The notes under the pieces are model-generated. The model worked only from the letters and a program-made list of their open reading frames with translations, did not search any database and had not been told where the DNA came from. DNA of 64,000 nucleotides from Coprobacter fastidiosus (GTDB taxonomy: Bacteria; Bacteroidota; Bacteroidia; Bacteroidales; Coprobacteraceae). Location: the NCBI RefSeq assembly GCF_030296935.1, contig NZ_AP028032.1, positions 1,178,001 through 1,242,000 on the forward strand. Direction: 5' to 3'. This document shows positions 37,832 through 47,231 of the stretch, piece by piece (position 1 is the stretch's first letter; every line of letters starts with the position of its first letter). The position numbers and the translations under genes were made by a program.

Positions 37832-38482
37832 ATGTCTCAAAAATATTATATACTTGCCGATAACCAGGCTATTACACGAGCCGGATTAAATTTCATAATA
37901 CGGGAATTACATCTTTCCGAACGTATTATACATATATATTCAAAACAGGAACTGCCCGATTTACTTAAAAAAAATTCTCAAGCTATAATCATCTTAGATT
38001 ATACACTTTTCGATTTTTCAAGAATCGAGGAGTTGATAAACTTACACGAACGATTTCCCTCTGTCCGATGGATCTTATTCTCGGAAGAACTTACTACCGA
38101 ATTTATCCGCAACATTTATTCTGACAAGGCATTCAGCGTCTTATTCAAAAATTCCTCATTTCAAGAAATTTCTGATGCCTTAAAATATACGATTTCCGAT
38201 AAACAATATTTGTGTGCCCAATCAAAAAATCAACTGCAAAATAATACAGAACAAGGAATCATCGGACAATCTTTACTAACTACTACGGAAATAGAAATAC
38301 TAAAACTGGTGGCACAAGGAAAATCCGTTAAAGAAATCGCGGCAATCCGCATATCAAGCGTACATACCATTATTACTCACAAAAAAAATATATTCCGAAA
38401 ACTGAACGTTAACAATATACATGAAGCAACCCGGTATGCCTTTCGTGCCGGAATAATCGACATGGCAGAATACTGCATATAA
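37832..38482 (+). CDS. LuxR/NarL-type response regulator (receiver intact)
   Basis: A 216-residue protein. The receiver (about 1-120) starts YYILADNQAITRAG, has the phospho-acceptor Asp in QAIIILDYTLFD near 51, the Ser switch in RWILFSEE and the conserved Lys in FSVLFKNSS. The C-terminal LuxR helix-turn-helix is LTTTEIEILKLVAQGKSVKEIAAIRISSVHTIITHKKNIFRKL (about 148-190). No histidine kinase is adjacent. It is paralogous to the regulator at 39.8-40.4 kb, especially in the recognition helix (HTIITHKKNIFRKL versus HTVITHRRNIVRKL), so the two might bind related sites. Confidence 0.9.
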   Translation: MSQKYYILADNQAITRAGLNFIIRELHLSERIIHIYSKQELPDLLKKNSQAIIILDYTLFDFSRIEELINLHERFPSVRWILFSEELTTEFIRNIYSDKAFSVLFKNSSFQEISDALKYTISDKQYLCAQSKNQLQNNTEQGIIGQSLLTTTEIEILKLVAQGKSVKEIAAIRISSVHTIITHKKNIFRKLNVNNIHEATRYAFRAGIIDMAEYCI

Positions 38483-39821: not shown

Positions 39822-40433
39822 TTATTTCTTCACATCATCAAGCTCAACCAACTTATTTACTATGGCATAAATCGTCAGTCCGGCAGGAGAATGTATCTGC
39901 AATTTACGTACAATATTACGACGATGAGTAATAACGGTATGGATAGACAAACACAATTTCGATGCAATTTCTTTGTTAGTCATTCCCTTAACAACACAAA
40001 CCACGATCTCTTTCTCCCGATAACTGAGTGACTCAGATTCTTCTTCAATATCTTCATTTCCAGAATCTCTCTGTAATAATTGAAGAATCTTCCCGGTTAT
40101 CGTATCCATATCATCGAATATAGAAATAACCCCATCATATTTATTCAAAAGAGTCGTATCCAACAAAGCACCTTGTAACGCAATACATTTAATATGGGAT
40201 GTACGAGGATTTTCTCTAAATCGATTCAAATCGAAATATCCGTCAAACACGGGATTGACAATAAGTATATCCGGCGTATGCATTCGTATGAACTCTTGTA
40301 AAGCATCTGTACTCAACACCTCCATCGGCTGTATCTTCAAATTCGGAACACGTTTAAGTACCGCAGTCATACCATTCCGGATAATCACAGAATTTTCAGC
40401 AATAACAATTCTTATCGCTTCATTACTTTTCAT
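39822..40433 (-). CDS. LuxR/NarL-type regulator with a degenerate receiver
   Basis: About 203 residues from the ATG at 40433, which follows a Shine-Dalgarno-like GAGGAAA inside the end of the upstream RIC gene; an earlier in-frame ATG is at 40454. The receiver-like domain (AIRIVIAENSVIIRNG) has lost the phospho-acceptor Asp (PDILIVNPVFDG, Asn instead) and the conserved Lys (GVISIFDD). It is therefore unlikely to be controlled by phosphorylation. The LuxR helix-turn-helix is LSYREKEIVVCVVKGMTNKEIASKLCLSIHTVITHRRNIVRKL. Overlap with RIC means coupled translation. It is the best candidate for the three local 7-2-7 sites. Confidence 0.9.
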   Translation of the reverse strand: MKSNEAIRIVIAENSVIIRNGMTAVLKRVPNLKIQPMEVLSTDALQEFIRMHTPDILIVNPVFDGYFDLNRFRENPRTSHIKCIALQGALLDTTLLNKYDGVISIFDDMDTITGKILQLLQRDSGNEDIEEESESLSYREKEIVVCVVKGMTNKEIASKLCLSIHTVITHRRNIVRKLQIHSPAGLTIYAIVNKLVELDDVKK

Positions 40434-41124
40434 TTTCCTCGAATTTTTTTTCAAGTTGGGCTACAGCCGGAACAAACAACAAATCTTCCAAATTACAATG
40501 TGATGCCAAATCTTGTTCACAAGAATAAATATCGAACAAGACGGAGTTCAAACTATTATTACTTCTTTCTGCCGGATAATATTTAATAATTATATTTTTC
40601 AGTTCGGTAAGTTTCGTCTGTATCTGATTATGCTTTCGGGCAAATACCAATATATTATAATCAGAATTCTTCTTCCCCTCTAATAAAGACGAAACATATC
40701 CGAAAACCATATTGTCTTCATATTCCATATGCCGGCGTACTTCGTTAACATATTCATCATAAAATTTCAAAATCAGAATAGCTACACCATCTTGAGAACA
40801 ATCTATCGCTTCAATCAATTTACGACGAATCGCCGGCAGACAAAAATCAAGAAAATAAGAATGAGAATTTTTCAAATACTCCATTAATGCTTGGATAGAA
40901 AGATCTGCTCCTCCGACAACAAATTGTCCGGTATCCATAAAATTAACGACTGCCAAAAACGTTTTATAATCCACGTTACAAGCATCGCAAACCTCTTTTA
41001 CATTTTTATCCCCGAACCCTAACGGCAAACCGAAACGGCTCATCACCATCAATAGAGTATAGTTTTCACAAATAAGATCGCTCATCTTATCTGTCGCTTT
41101 ATATTTAGGAATGTTGTCACTCAT
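40423..41124 (-). CDS. RIC/YtfE-type hemerythrin-domain di-iron protein
   Basis: A 233-residue protein. An N-terminal all-helical segment (KATDKMSDLICENYTLLMVMSRFGLPLGFGDKNVKEVC) resembles the ScdA/RIC N-terminal domain. A hemerythrin-like bundle follows with metal-ligand candidates KNSHSYFLDF near 86, RRHMEYEDNM near 130, FARKHNQIQ near 160 and ASHCNLEDLLFVP near 210. RIC proteins are di-iron factors that repair Fe-S clusters damaged by nitric oxide or oxidants. Operon with the LuxR-type regulator, whose start overlaps its stop. Its promoter has a 7-2-7 site at the shared spacing. Confidence 0.88.
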   Translation of the reverse strand: MSDNIPKYKATDKMSDLICENYTLLMVMSRFGLPLGFGDKNVKEVCDACNVDYKTFLAVVNFMDTGQFVVGGADLSIQALMEYLKNSHSYFLDFCLPAIRRKLIEAIDCSQDGVAILILKFYDEYVNEVRRHMEYEDNMVFGYVSSLLEGKKNSDYNILVFARKHNQIQTKLTELKNIIIKYYPAERSNNSLNSVLFDIYSCEQDLASHCNLEDLLFVPAVAQLEKKFEENEK

Positions 41125-41163: not shown

Positions 41164-41186
41164 CAGATTATTAGCTAAAAATACAA

Positions 41187-41202
41187 TCCCCATTTATAGG
41201 TA
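41187..41202. promoter_or_regulatory. NarL-like 7-2-7 site at the RIC promoter
   Basis: TCCCCAT-TT-ATAGGTA fits the enterobacterial NarL/NarP pattern TACYYMT-N2-AKRRGTA at 13 of 14 positions. Its centre, 41194.5, lies 38.5 bp from the G of the RIC -7 element. Confidence 0.65.
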
Positions 41203-41275
41203 TTTCAACAAAGCTTTTTCAGTATAAATAATGACAGACAAGAATCCCGATTTATAATGAGAATAAACAAAACAA

Positions 41276-41291
41276 TACTTATTTTTAGGTA
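41276..41291. promoter_or_regulatory. NarL-like 7-2-7 site at the porin/imelysin promoter
   Basis: TACTTAT-TT-TTAGGTA fits TACYYMT-N2-AKRRGTA at 13 of 14 positions. Its centre, 41283.5, lies 38.5 bp from the G of the -7 TTTG (41322). It is also embedded in a wider dyad, ACAATAC...GTATTGT (41272-41295). The motif TTTWTAGGTATT(G)TCAACA is shared directly with the RIC site 89 bp away. Confidence 0.65.
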
Positions 41292-41314
41292 TTGTCAACA
41301 CTTTACAGCACTTA

Positions 41315-41345: not shown

Positions 41346-42635
41346 ATGAAAAGATTTACTACTTTAACATTCCTTATTCTACTTTTATGTCAGGGAATAC
41401 AAGCCCGAAATTTTCAAAATAACGATACTACAAAAGTAAAAAATCACGAAGAATATAAAAAATTCAGAGTCGGTAGTTACGGAGAAATGCTTTTCCAACA
41501 TATGGACTATGGCCCATATCGTTTTGGAAACGGCGGAGCTGGCTCTCCGAGTGATAAACGATCTTCTATATCGCTTCCCCGTTTTGTATTAGCTTTCGAT
41601 TACAAATTTACTCCATCTATCATTTTATCTGCTGAAATAGAATTCGAATACGGAGGTACGGGTGCAAGTATAGAACATGAATACACCGAAGGAGGCGAAT
41701 ACGAAGCTGAAATAGAAAAAGGTGGAGAAGTTGCATTGGAACAATTCCACATTACTAAAATATTTCATCCGGCATTTGCCGTACGAGCAGGACACATGAT
41801 CGTACCTATAGGATTGACAAATGCACATCACGAACCGATATTCTTTTTCGGTGCTACACGACCGGAAGGCGAAACACAGATAATCCCGTCTACTTGGCAT
41901 GAAACCGGGATCGCCATTTTGGGAAAGGCCGGAGATTTCGACTATCAAGCAATGGTCATCAGCGGATTAGATCCCAACGGATTCGATGCTGCTAATTGGA
42001 TTAAAAACGGAAAACAGAACAAATTCGAAATACCGAATATGACCAATCCGGCATATGTAGCACGGGTAGATTATTCGGGCGTTAAAAATACGAGATTCGG
42101 TATATCGGCATATTATACCCCAAGCACCGCCAAAAACTCGACTAAACCAAGCCGAATGGAAGGGATAAAAGGTGCAATCACAATTTTGTCTGCCGATGCG
42201 CAATATTACAGCCGTGATATTATTGCACGAGCAAACGTTATATACGGAAATCTGACCGAAAGCGACCTTATTTACAAAGAAAATTTAAGAAATCCCACAG
42301 CACTGGGATATTCAGAGACCCCTGTTGCAAAAGATGTTTTGACATACGGTGCAGAGGTAGGATACAACATCGGTGCATTTTTTAACCACAAATTCAATTT
42401 ATTTCCATTTGTACGTTACGAATATTATAATTCGATGCACAAAACAGCAAACAATATTTCTGCCGATCCTCGTTATAAAGTGGATCTTATTACTGCAGGC
42501 TTAAACTATTATATACTCCCCAATCTCGTTGCCAAAGCAGACTATACACGCAGATGGATCGGAGGAGGACGTTTCAATAATGAAAGTACTATATCATTAG
42601 GATTAGCTTATATCGGTTGGTTCTTTTCTAAATAA
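41346..42635 (+). CDS. Outer-membrane porin-like protein, first gene of the iron-type cluster
   Basis: About 429 residues with a signal peptide (MKRFTTLTFLILLLCQGIQA). The body is porin-like: YKKFRVGSYGEMLFQHMDYG, LPRFVLAFDYKFTPSIILSAEIEFEYGG, FAVRAGHMIVPIGLTNAHHEP, ending in LGLAYIGWFFSK. It resembles the phosphate-selective O/P-type porins of Bacteroidota; real substrate unknown. A promoter and a 7-2-7 site precede it. It leads the run porin, imelysin, dihaem oxidoreductase, porin, cytochrome (gaps 32, 22, 29 and 11 bp). Confidence 0.8.
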   Translation: MKRFTTLTFLILLLCQGIQARNFQNNDTTKVKNHEEYKKFRVGSYGEMLFQHMDYGPYRFGNGGAGSPSDKRSSISLPRFVLAFDYKFTPSIILSAEIEFEYGGTGASIEHEYTEGGEYEAEIEKGGEVALEQFHITKIFHPAFAVRAGHMIVPIGLTNAHHEPIFFFGATRPEGETQIIPSTWHETGIAILGKAGDFDYQAMVISGLDPNGFDAANWIKNGKQNKFEIPNMTNPAYVARVDYSGVKNTRFGISAYYTPSTAKNSTKPSRMEGIKGAITILSADAQYYSRDIIARANVIYGNLTESDLIYKENLRNPTALGYSETPVAKDVLTYGAEVGYNIGAFFNHKFNLFPFVRYEYYNSMHKTANNISADPRYKVDLITAGLNYYILPNLVAKADYTRRWIGGGRFNNESTISLGLAYIGWFFSK

Positions 42636-43835: not shown

Positions 43836-45280
43836 ATGACAAAATACAGATTTTTTAAAAATTTGTTCTCGTTTCCCCTTGTACTCAGCATTGCCCGGAC
43901 CATTGTCCCGGCAATGCTTCTCTATAGTTGTAGCGAAGCTCTCGATGACACGGTAATACTGAAGCCGAACGGAACTGTAGCCAGTTATAAAGAACTATCC
44001 GCCGGAACTTCTACAATATTCTCATCCTCCAGCCGTGCATACGACACCGAAGCTAACTGGGTAACAGGCGATCTGGAAACAATGTTCACCAATGGAGATA
44101 TGTTATATGATGACCCCAGGGTTAGCGGGAACGATCCTTCTACAGGAGGATTAGGACCAGTATATGGAGGCTATTCTTGCGGAAGCTGCCATAATAATGC
44201 AGGAAGAACCTCATCAACTTTGTTTACTCATGGAGGTTCGGGAAACGGCTTTTCCTCCATATTAATCTACATAACACGTAAAGACGGCGGTTATTTTCGC
44301 CAATACGGGCGCGTACTGCATGATCAAAGCATTGTGGGTAGCCAAGCTGAAGGAAAACTTTCTGTAACATATACAACAGAAAAGTTCAAATTTCCGGACG
44401 GAGAAGAATATGAACTACAAACACCGCATTATCGAGTTACCGAATGGTATGCCGATAGTATTCGTCCCGAAGACCTATATATAAGTCCTCGTATTCCGTT
44501 GCGTCATGTAGGGATGGGACAAATGATGGCACTCAGCCAAACGGAACTCATAAAAATTGCAGCTCAAAGCAATTATCCGGAATACGGAATCAGCGGAAAA
44601 CTAAATTATGTAACGGAAAAAGGGGTACGGAAAATCGGAGTATCCGGAAATAAAGCCAACCATTTGGACTTGACGGTAGAACTCGGTTTTTCTTCGGATC
44701 TGGGTGTCACAAACGACCGTTATCCTGAAGAAGTTTGCGAAGGCCAAAGCCAATCGCCTCACGGATTACAGGGGATACAAATAAGTACGAAAGATATGGA
44801 ATATGTCGATTTCTATCTGCACGCTTTAGGTGTACCTGCCCGAAGATATGTCAATAACGCCGAAGTAAAAAAAGGTGAAGAAAACTTCTATAAAGCGAAA
44901 TGCGATTTGTGCCATATGCCCACTTTACACACCCGTGCAGATGCGCCTTTATTACTTAACGGTACTCGACTGCCTTGGCTTTGCAATCAGGTTATACACC
45001 CATATTCAGATTATCTTCTACACGATATGGGCCCGAATTAGACGACCACCTTTCGGCAGGTCTGGCAACCGGAGCTGAATGGCGGACAACGCCATTATGG
45101 GGTATAGGCTTGCAAGAGGTGGTTAACGGACATACAGAATTCTTACATGACGGACGTGCACGCAACTTAAAAGAGGCGATCATGTGGCACGGAGGTGAAG
45201 GTGCCGTGTCGCGCGAACTGTTCAAAAGGATGAGCAAGGAAGACCGGGACGCACTGATTCTTTTTATCGAAAGTTTATAA
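43836..45280 (+). CDS. Dihaem oxidoreductase (DUF1111/DHOR family), frame-disrupted
   Basis: Two overlapping frames together encode one ~481-residue protein. Frame 1 (43836-45041) starts with a lipoprotein signal (LLYSC, Cys32), has haem-binding CGSCH near 115 and CDLCH near 356, and stops at TAG 45039-45041. The conserved C-terminus (LDDHLSAGLATGAEWRTTPLWGIGL ... FLHDGRARNLKEAI) continues in the -1 frame to 45280. The junction is the heptamer G-GGC-CCG at 45029-45035, a canonical X-XXY-YYZ -1 slippery site. A slip gives HDMGPELDDHL without loss. So either recoding, a real 1-base deletion, or a sequence error. Members are c-type dihaem proteins beside imelysin genes. Confidence 0.88.
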
Positions 45281-46553: not shown

Positions 46554-47231
46554 ATGAAATATTCTTTTATTATAATAGCAGGATTACTTGCATTTTCAGC
46601 TTGTGACAGTGGAGACATATATCCCAAGGAAGAAGAGTACAGCGGACGCAATGTAAATGTAACTCTCCATTTCTTCGGTGTTAATGCATGGCCCGAAGAA
46701 TATGAACTGAAACTCACATCTTTCGGTGATAACGAGGATACTCCGCTAACTACCCTACTGCTGGAAAAAAACGATGAAGGCTCAGGTACTTACCTGATGC
46801 ACAATGTGCCATTCGAAGCCAAGAATATTGCCGTATCGATCATGAATAACAGAAAATGGGTATGTAATCTCAATGAACAACAATTATCCGGTAGTGAAAC
46901 AAATATATCCCTATCTGATATGAATGTAAACCTTGTACAATATAACCGCATCCAGGAACAGGTATTTAACCAATGTACTGCCTGTCATGGCGGTGCCGGA
47001 GGTTTGTATCTTACGGAAGATAAAAGTTACGATGCCTTGGTAAATAAAGCTTCTTCAACCCATCCGGATAAAATGTTAGTCGAACCGGGACTTCCAAACA
47101 GCAGTTTTATCATTACGGTACTGACAGACGCTCAAGCTACCAAAACAAACCATACGACCTTATCTTCTTTAAAAAATGACGATATAACTTTACTGAAAGA
47201 ATGGATTAAAGCCGGAGCTAAAAAAGAATAA
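46554..47231 (+). CDS. Lipoprotein with a single c-type haem site
   Basis: A 225-residue lipoprotein (lipobox FSAC, Cys17). Residues about 30-125 form a beta-rich domain (VNVTLHFFGVNAWPEEYELKLTSFG). The C-terminal part has a haem-c motif CTACH at 141-145 (FNQCTACHGGAGGLYL), then SSTHPDKMLVEPGLPNSSFI and LKEWIKAGAKKE, like small cytochrome c modules of Planctomycete-type. Last gene of the cluster, 11 bp after the porin. It probably passes electrons with the dihaem oxidoreductase at the outer membrane, which is inference. Confidence 0.85.
   Translation: MKYSFIIIAGLLAFSACDSGDIYPKEEEYSGRNVNVTLHFFGVNAWPEEYELKLTSFGDNEDTPLTTLLLEKNDEGSGTYLMHNVPFEAKNIAVSIMNNRKWVCNLNEQQLSGSETNISLSDMNVNLVQYNRIQEQVFNQCTACHGGAGGLYLTEDKSYDALVNKASSTHPDKMLVEPGLPNSSFIITVLTDAQATKTNHTTLSSLKNDDITLLKEWIKAGAKKE

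Follow-up and report, generated by a model that had tools for sequence, protein, structure and literature searches.

The mechanisms of iron-responsive gene regulation in Bacteroidetes are described as scarcely known in PMC10434189, where CdhR of P. gingivalis is not shown to bind iron. According to the same source, a gene for a hemerythrin-domain protein and, directly after it, a response-regulator-like LuxR gene are induced by iron depletion both in P. gingivalis (PG1236–PG1237, the second being CdhR) and in B. thetaiotaomicron (BT_0519–BT_0520), and a fused form in Prevotella intermedia (PIN17_RS10465) contains the hemerythrin and the DNA-binding domain in one protein. The genes listed there as iron-dependent are the DUF4876/TonB genes PG1019–1022 (21- to 215-fold), the TetR/ABC genes PG1175–1181, the SAM-methyltransferase loci PG1467/BT_1855, gpmA (BT1658-60), and the hemerythrin–CdhR pair itself, these kinds of genes being induced by iron starvation in P. 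gingivalis or B. thetaiotaomicron. Moreover, CdhR activates hmuYR, as reported in PMC10101095, and cdhR responds also to the Ltp1/Ptk1 tyrosine-phosphorylation pathway in P. gingivalis (PMC4082711).

The window considered here, that is, the whole 64-kb stretch of DNA that was analysed, belongs to a genome of 3.44 Mb contained in one contig and holds a pair with the gene order of PG1236–CdhR and BT_0519–0520 (hemerythrin then LuxR, or fused), a likeness that is based on synteny and on the published description. At a distance of some 2 kb from the homologous pairs of B. fragilis and B. faecis there are flavodoxin and DUF2023 genes, which correspond to BT_0516–0517, whereas the pair in the window adjoins an operon for a porin, an imelysin, and a di-haem oxidoreductase (DHOR), unlike the flavodoxin/DUF2023 context of BT_0519–0520. 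The type represented by PIN17_RS10465 was found in 36 fused loci, while the window contains the two-gene form with a pseudo-receiver. As in the pair, a hemerythrin domain serves as sensory input in the hemerythrin–diguanylate cyclase VC1216 of V. cholerae (as cited in PMC10101095), which has, however, a different output domain and is a single protein.

PMC10434189 already describes the pair, the regulation of the pair by iron, and the fused form of Prevotella. The new elements are the pseudo-receiver clade, the recurrent receiver-free fusions, the DNA site with its predicted regulon, and a second pair without di-iron ligands; in the literature searched, mostly without subscription papers, no earlier report of an Asn-Pro pseudo-receiver, of repeated receiver-free fusions, of the palindrome, or of a metal-less pair was found. 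The explanation that we favour, with a probability of roughly 0.6, is that of a phosphorylation-independent di-iron sensor–regulator pair in control of iron acquisition.

The Gene Pair and Its Neighbourhood

Both reading frames of the preliminary description, together with their overlap, are present on the minus strand. The hemerythrin-domain protein (hereafter HHE protein, 233 aa; 40423..41124, minus strand) consists of a degenerate ScdA_N-like N-terminal part and a four-helix HHE domain (PF01814, 5.5e-10). It is followed by a LuxR/NarL-type regulator (39822..40433, minus strand) that is composed of a pseudo-receiver, with Asn67-Pro68 at the acceptor site (P0002 numbering), and a GerE HTH (residues 141–197 of P0002; Pfam, E = 2e-16). 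The longest LuxR reading frame opens at TTG 40454, and GAGGAAA precedes ATG 40433, which is the likely start. This ATG overlaps the 3' end of the HHE gene (stop at 40423–40425) by 11 nt (40423..40433, minus strand), and among relatives the two genes most commonly overlap by 4 or 11 nt; translation of the two genes is likely to be coupled through this overlap. The relatives of the locus that carry names are nearly all Bacteroidales, the closest being a Bacteroidales MAG with 92% identity.

The divergent operon, on the plus strand, comprises the predicted targets. Its first gene encodes an outer-membrane porin-like protein without a Pfam match (41346..42635), followed by an imelysin (PF09375; 42668..43813), the DHOR (PF06537; 43836..45280), a Porin_O_P protein (PF07396; 45310..46542), and finally a lipoprotein with one CxxCH haem motif and without a Pfam match (46554..47231). 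The DHOR is read in two overlapping frames (43836–45041 and 44975–45280) matching consecutive parts of PF06537 (154–417 and 419–499) and, thus, the gene is frameshifted as sequenced, either by a true lesion or by a sequencing error.

On the other side of the pair, a second LuxR-type regulator (37832–38482), with a divergent receiver that nonetheless retains Asp and Lys, comes after a gene for a class I/II aminotransferase (PatB/MalY-like). An aminotransferase of this kind is also close to the HHE–LuxR pair in three other loci.

A Receiver without Its Phosphorylation Site

The AlphaFold model of the regulator P0002 (pLDDT 89.8) comprises a (beta-alpha)5 receiver and the HTH, and its best PDB matches in Foldseek are full-length response regulators, e.g., ChrA, VraR, and LiaR. 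The protein shares the receiver and GerE HTH fold with these NarL/FixJ regulators, although, unlike them, it has no acceptor Asp, no switch Lys, and no kinase nearby. Asn67 comes after strand 3 of the predicted receiver, which is the phospho-acceptor position, within the segment ILIVNPVFDG, and had been read correctly in the preliminary description, as had the missing switch Lys. Among 47 adjacent LuxR proteins, the acceptor position is occupied by Asn in 38 and by Asp in 3, and none has Lys at the switch-Lys position; in a second set (n = 44), Asn67-Pro68 is at least 90% conserved. As judged from these alignments, the Asn at the acceptor site is not a product of chance. The Pfam model Response_reg detects only 4 of 44 LuxR proteins and misses the divergent receiver of P0002.

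No histidine kinase or HATPase_c domain was found within the 64-kb window, as had been claimed, and the nearest one recorded lies about 31 kb from the pair, outside the window. Across the orthologue alignment, the acceptor Asp is missing almost throughout the clade and no kinase is near, which agrees with the phosphorylation-blind regulator initially proposed. That the pair might work as a phosphorelay served by an orphan kinase is an idea that we set aside, since the acceptor Asp and the Lys are missing and the fused forms have no receiver.

A Hemerythrin Protein Derived from RIC

The RIC/YtfE/ScdA family (TIGR03652) is the best family and fold match of the HHE protein, and the two agree in their ligands (four His and two Glu). 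In the protein of the window, these are H88, H132, E136, H165, H209, and E213, the kept counterparts of the YtfE di-iron ligands H84, H129, E133, H160, H204, and E208. Five of them (H88, H132, E136, H209, and E213) occur in all of the 61 sequences aligned and H165 in 58, and in the fused set all six are invariant as well. A single-sequence search returned no PDB match to the HHE protein, and YtfE was found by fold search. From its sequence, the HHE protein should bind two irons.

Unlike RIC/YtfE/ScdA, however, the HHE protein is linked to LuxR, has no DFCCGG motif, and falls far under the family cut-off, scoring 42.7 bits in NCBIfam TIGR03652 against the 204.7 bits required. In the LuxR-linked clade, the DFCCGG of ScdA_N is replaced by an LGFGDK-type sequence, CC being missing in 61/61, and Cys46 is invariant. 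Across the phylum, all LuxR-linked hemerythrin reading frames are devoid of CC, while none of the 46 CC-type frames has a LuxR neighbour. Therefore, the hemerythrin family is RIC-derived and not RIC, because DFCCGG has been lost while the di-iron ligands have been kept; the initial designation as RIC-type holds for the ligands and fails for the Cys-Cys motif. Four CC-less frames (L189, L201, L210, and L232) are unlinked to LuxR and have no LGFGDK-type sequence either. The first of them (contig C64 of genome G484) is a hemerythrin homologue found elsewhere in the class that has neither CC nor LGFGDK nor a LuxR neighbour, and is possibly an intermediate.

The homology to RIC, the common fold, and the conserved di-iron site would also be expected of an enzyme that repairs iron clusters or stores iron and whose gene is simply co-transcribed with LuxR and regulated by it. 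Such a role is improbable in view of the loss of the CC motif in the LuxR-linked branch, the CC-type RICs that are never beside LuxR, the repeated receiver-free fusion to the HTH, and a ligand-less paralogue that is still paired with its own LuxR, the last two of which are described below.

Linkage of the Two Genes and Receiver-Free Fusions

Hemerythrin homologues are present in 197 of the 295 genomes of the order and LuxR homologues (threshold 1e-12) in 205; both genes occur in 190 genomes, a hemerythrin match alone in 7, and a weak LuxR match alone in 15. At 140 homologous loci, LuxR is directly downstream (100), upstream (2), fused (36), or absent (2). It is, thus, adjacent (102) or fused (36) in 138 of the 140, and the co-occurrence foreseen in the preliminary description is borne out. 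The two exceptions without LuxR (L077 and L094) form one small branch of the tree. In L072 and L073, the order is reversed, with LuxR first, and the genes still abut or overlap. Flavodoxin/DUF2023, FeoB, or imelysin/DHOR/porin genes are close to the pair in 31/140 loci, the FeoB neighbours being distributed across six families of the order. A functional partnership of the HHE and LuxR proteins is very likely, and direct contact between them is probable.

In the fused forms (36 loci), a hemerythrin domain is connected by a linker to the same LuxR HTH and the receiver is missing. These forms do not make up one clade, since the larger hemerythrin-domain tree contains nine changes, at least two of them forced by starred branches, and the AU test on a 55-row tree rejects a single fused clade (p = 4e-73, whose exact value is not to be over-read for a group defined by a trait). 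The trees clearly point to a repeated origin (or repeated loss) of the fused state. The receiver-free fusions indicate that the hemerythrin module can serve as the input domain of a LuxR HTH. Structure prediction was run on a natural fusion as a single chain (pTM 0.68, with an unreliable relative placement of the domains). In this model, the fourth helix of the bundle bears the ligands H209 and E213 and extends without interruption (residues 190–243) into the linker, followed by a short low-confidence break and then by the HTH. The metal site could plausibly communicate with the DNA-binding domain along this helix.

The fused forms also bear on the idea that LuxR is mainly controlled by another route, such as tyrosine phosphorylation, transcript level, or a small ligand, and that the hemerythrin only stabilises it. 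Ltp1 and Ptk1 do change cdhR expression in P. gingivalis (PMC4082711), but the effect is described as indirect and exerted on transcription, and the fused forms have no receiver to modify, so that this route is most unlikely to be the principal one.

A Palindromic DNA Site and the Predicted Regulon

A 22-bp imperfect palindrome, AAATACCTAnAAATnGGnATTG, is common to the upstream sequences of non-redundant loci. It scores at least 10 bits upstream of 64 of the 123 loci versus 0/123 shuffles, at 49 split and 15 fused loci, mostly 64–90 nt before the start, and a recognisable palindrome is missing in about half of the loci, mainly the distant ones. Its TAC...GTA arms follow a NarL-like 7-2-7 layout. 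In the window, the palindrome is present twice in the stretch that separates the pair from the divergent porin/imelysin/DHOR/Porin_O_P operon. The first (AAATACCTATAAATGGGGATTG; 41184..41205, minus strand) precedes the start of the HHE gene by 81 nt, a position conserved in relatives, and is predicted to be an autoregulatory site. The second (CAATACCTAAAAATAAGTATTG; 41273..41294, minus strand) is found just upstream of the promoter of the divergent operon, a Bacteroidota-type promoter (TATACCTTTG) that was read by eye. We infer that this LuxR protein binds the palindrome.

The genome was also searched for the palindrome as a pattern. With up to 2 mismatches, the 102 matches barely differ from the 88 of the reversed control and, therefore, only sites with 0–1 mismatch were used. 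Exact matches are found only three times in the 3.44-Mb genome, namely the two in the intergenic region of the pair and a third one that precedes an operon for a TetR regulator, a leucine carboxyl methyltransferase-like protein, a phosphoglycerate-mutase-like protein, an ABC transporter, and a second methyltransferase. Moreover, a TonB receptor–DUF4876 operon and a divergent gene are separated by a region with two sites in tandem, each with one mismatch. In B. fragilis Q1F2, sites with 0–1 mismatch amount to 10 rows, compared with 2 for the reversed control. Among them are sites at the pair, at a TonB receptor, and at a methyltransferase gene that is followed by a TonB receptor-type gene, together with several others without an evident iron link. 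The conserved site stands, in this way, at iron-type genes, and a match by family names, not by orthology, suggests that the predicted targets are the genes reported as iron-dependent in PMC10434189. A search for HmuY gave no match in this genome, nor in any genome in the control search. In Bacteroidales of gut and mouth, the pair probably controls the iron-uptake genes beside it.

The six ligands kept by the protein might instead form a site that senses O2, NO, or peroxide, through which LuxR would stop iron uptake under oxidative conditions. Sensing of O2 or of redox state is known for hemerythrin domains of bacteria, as in VC1216 of V. cholerae, and cdhR and hmu are reported to be down under microaerophilic conditions (both from PMC10101095). 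Nevertheless, the predicted targets and the reported induction track iron starvation, and this alternative appears unlikely, if less so than the two preceding ones; in a di-iron protein, these signals and iron overlap and are inseparable by sequence.

A Second Pair without Di-Iron Ligands

The same genome contains a second hemerythrin–LuxR pair at 894748–896053 (4749–6053 of L200, on C1), which was compared across the 17 genomes whose orthologue is close (identity of 49% or more). In all 17, LuxR is adjacent and the hemerythrin protein shows H88N (D in one), H132R (K in one), E136D, no His at 165, and E213R. This pair comes after ctpA and the gene for 5-formyltetrahydrofolate cyclo-ligase in most genomes, and no palindrome was found at it (best 8.9 bits). 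From these substitutions, it looks like a duplicate with a rebuilt metal site. Since the two paralogous proteins remain partners although the di-iron ligands are gone, the metal is dispensable for pairing itself.

Proposed Mechanism and Implications

In the sensor–regulator reading that we favour, the hemerythrin protein would bind a di-iron centre and report the occupancy or redox state of this centre through direct contact with LuxR, whose receiver would function as a docking module after the phosphorylation chemistry had gone. The LuxR dimer would then bind a palindrome of the TACCTA-n4-TnGGTA type and control the operon that encodes it as well as operons for iron uptake, which in the window means the divergent porin/imelysin/DHOR operon. 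Not all steps are equally firm. The di-iron state has a reasonable claim to be the signal, and the natural cue is slightly more likely to be iron supply than O2, NO, or peroxide, while the apo (iron-starved) form being the active one is a guess. The sensor pair envisaged in the preliminary description, with the di-iron protein or its iron state as the signal, gains from the loss of the Asp, the linkage, and the receiver-free fusions; its RIC-type component does not pass the RIC motif test, and both the pair and its iron regulation had already been reported (PMC10434189).

A broader picture, put forward tentatively, is that of an iron sensor, widespread in Bacteroidales, that uses a di-iron centre and no phosphorylation and might govern the iron-starvation regulon via AATACCTA-n4-TnGGTATT, with the second pair acting as a metal-blind hemerythrin switch (conserved Asn/Arg/Asp/Arg) with a LuxR partner of its own and another regulon. 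For the known iron-regulated systems, the analysis names the hemerythrin partner, and not CdhR itself, as the likely sensor, and the loss of the phosphorylation site together with the presence of this partner provides a reason why a kinase may be unneeded. The DNA site and the list of targets make the question of iron sensing directly testable in a gut commensal used in the laboratory, and the metal-less second pair is a natural control.
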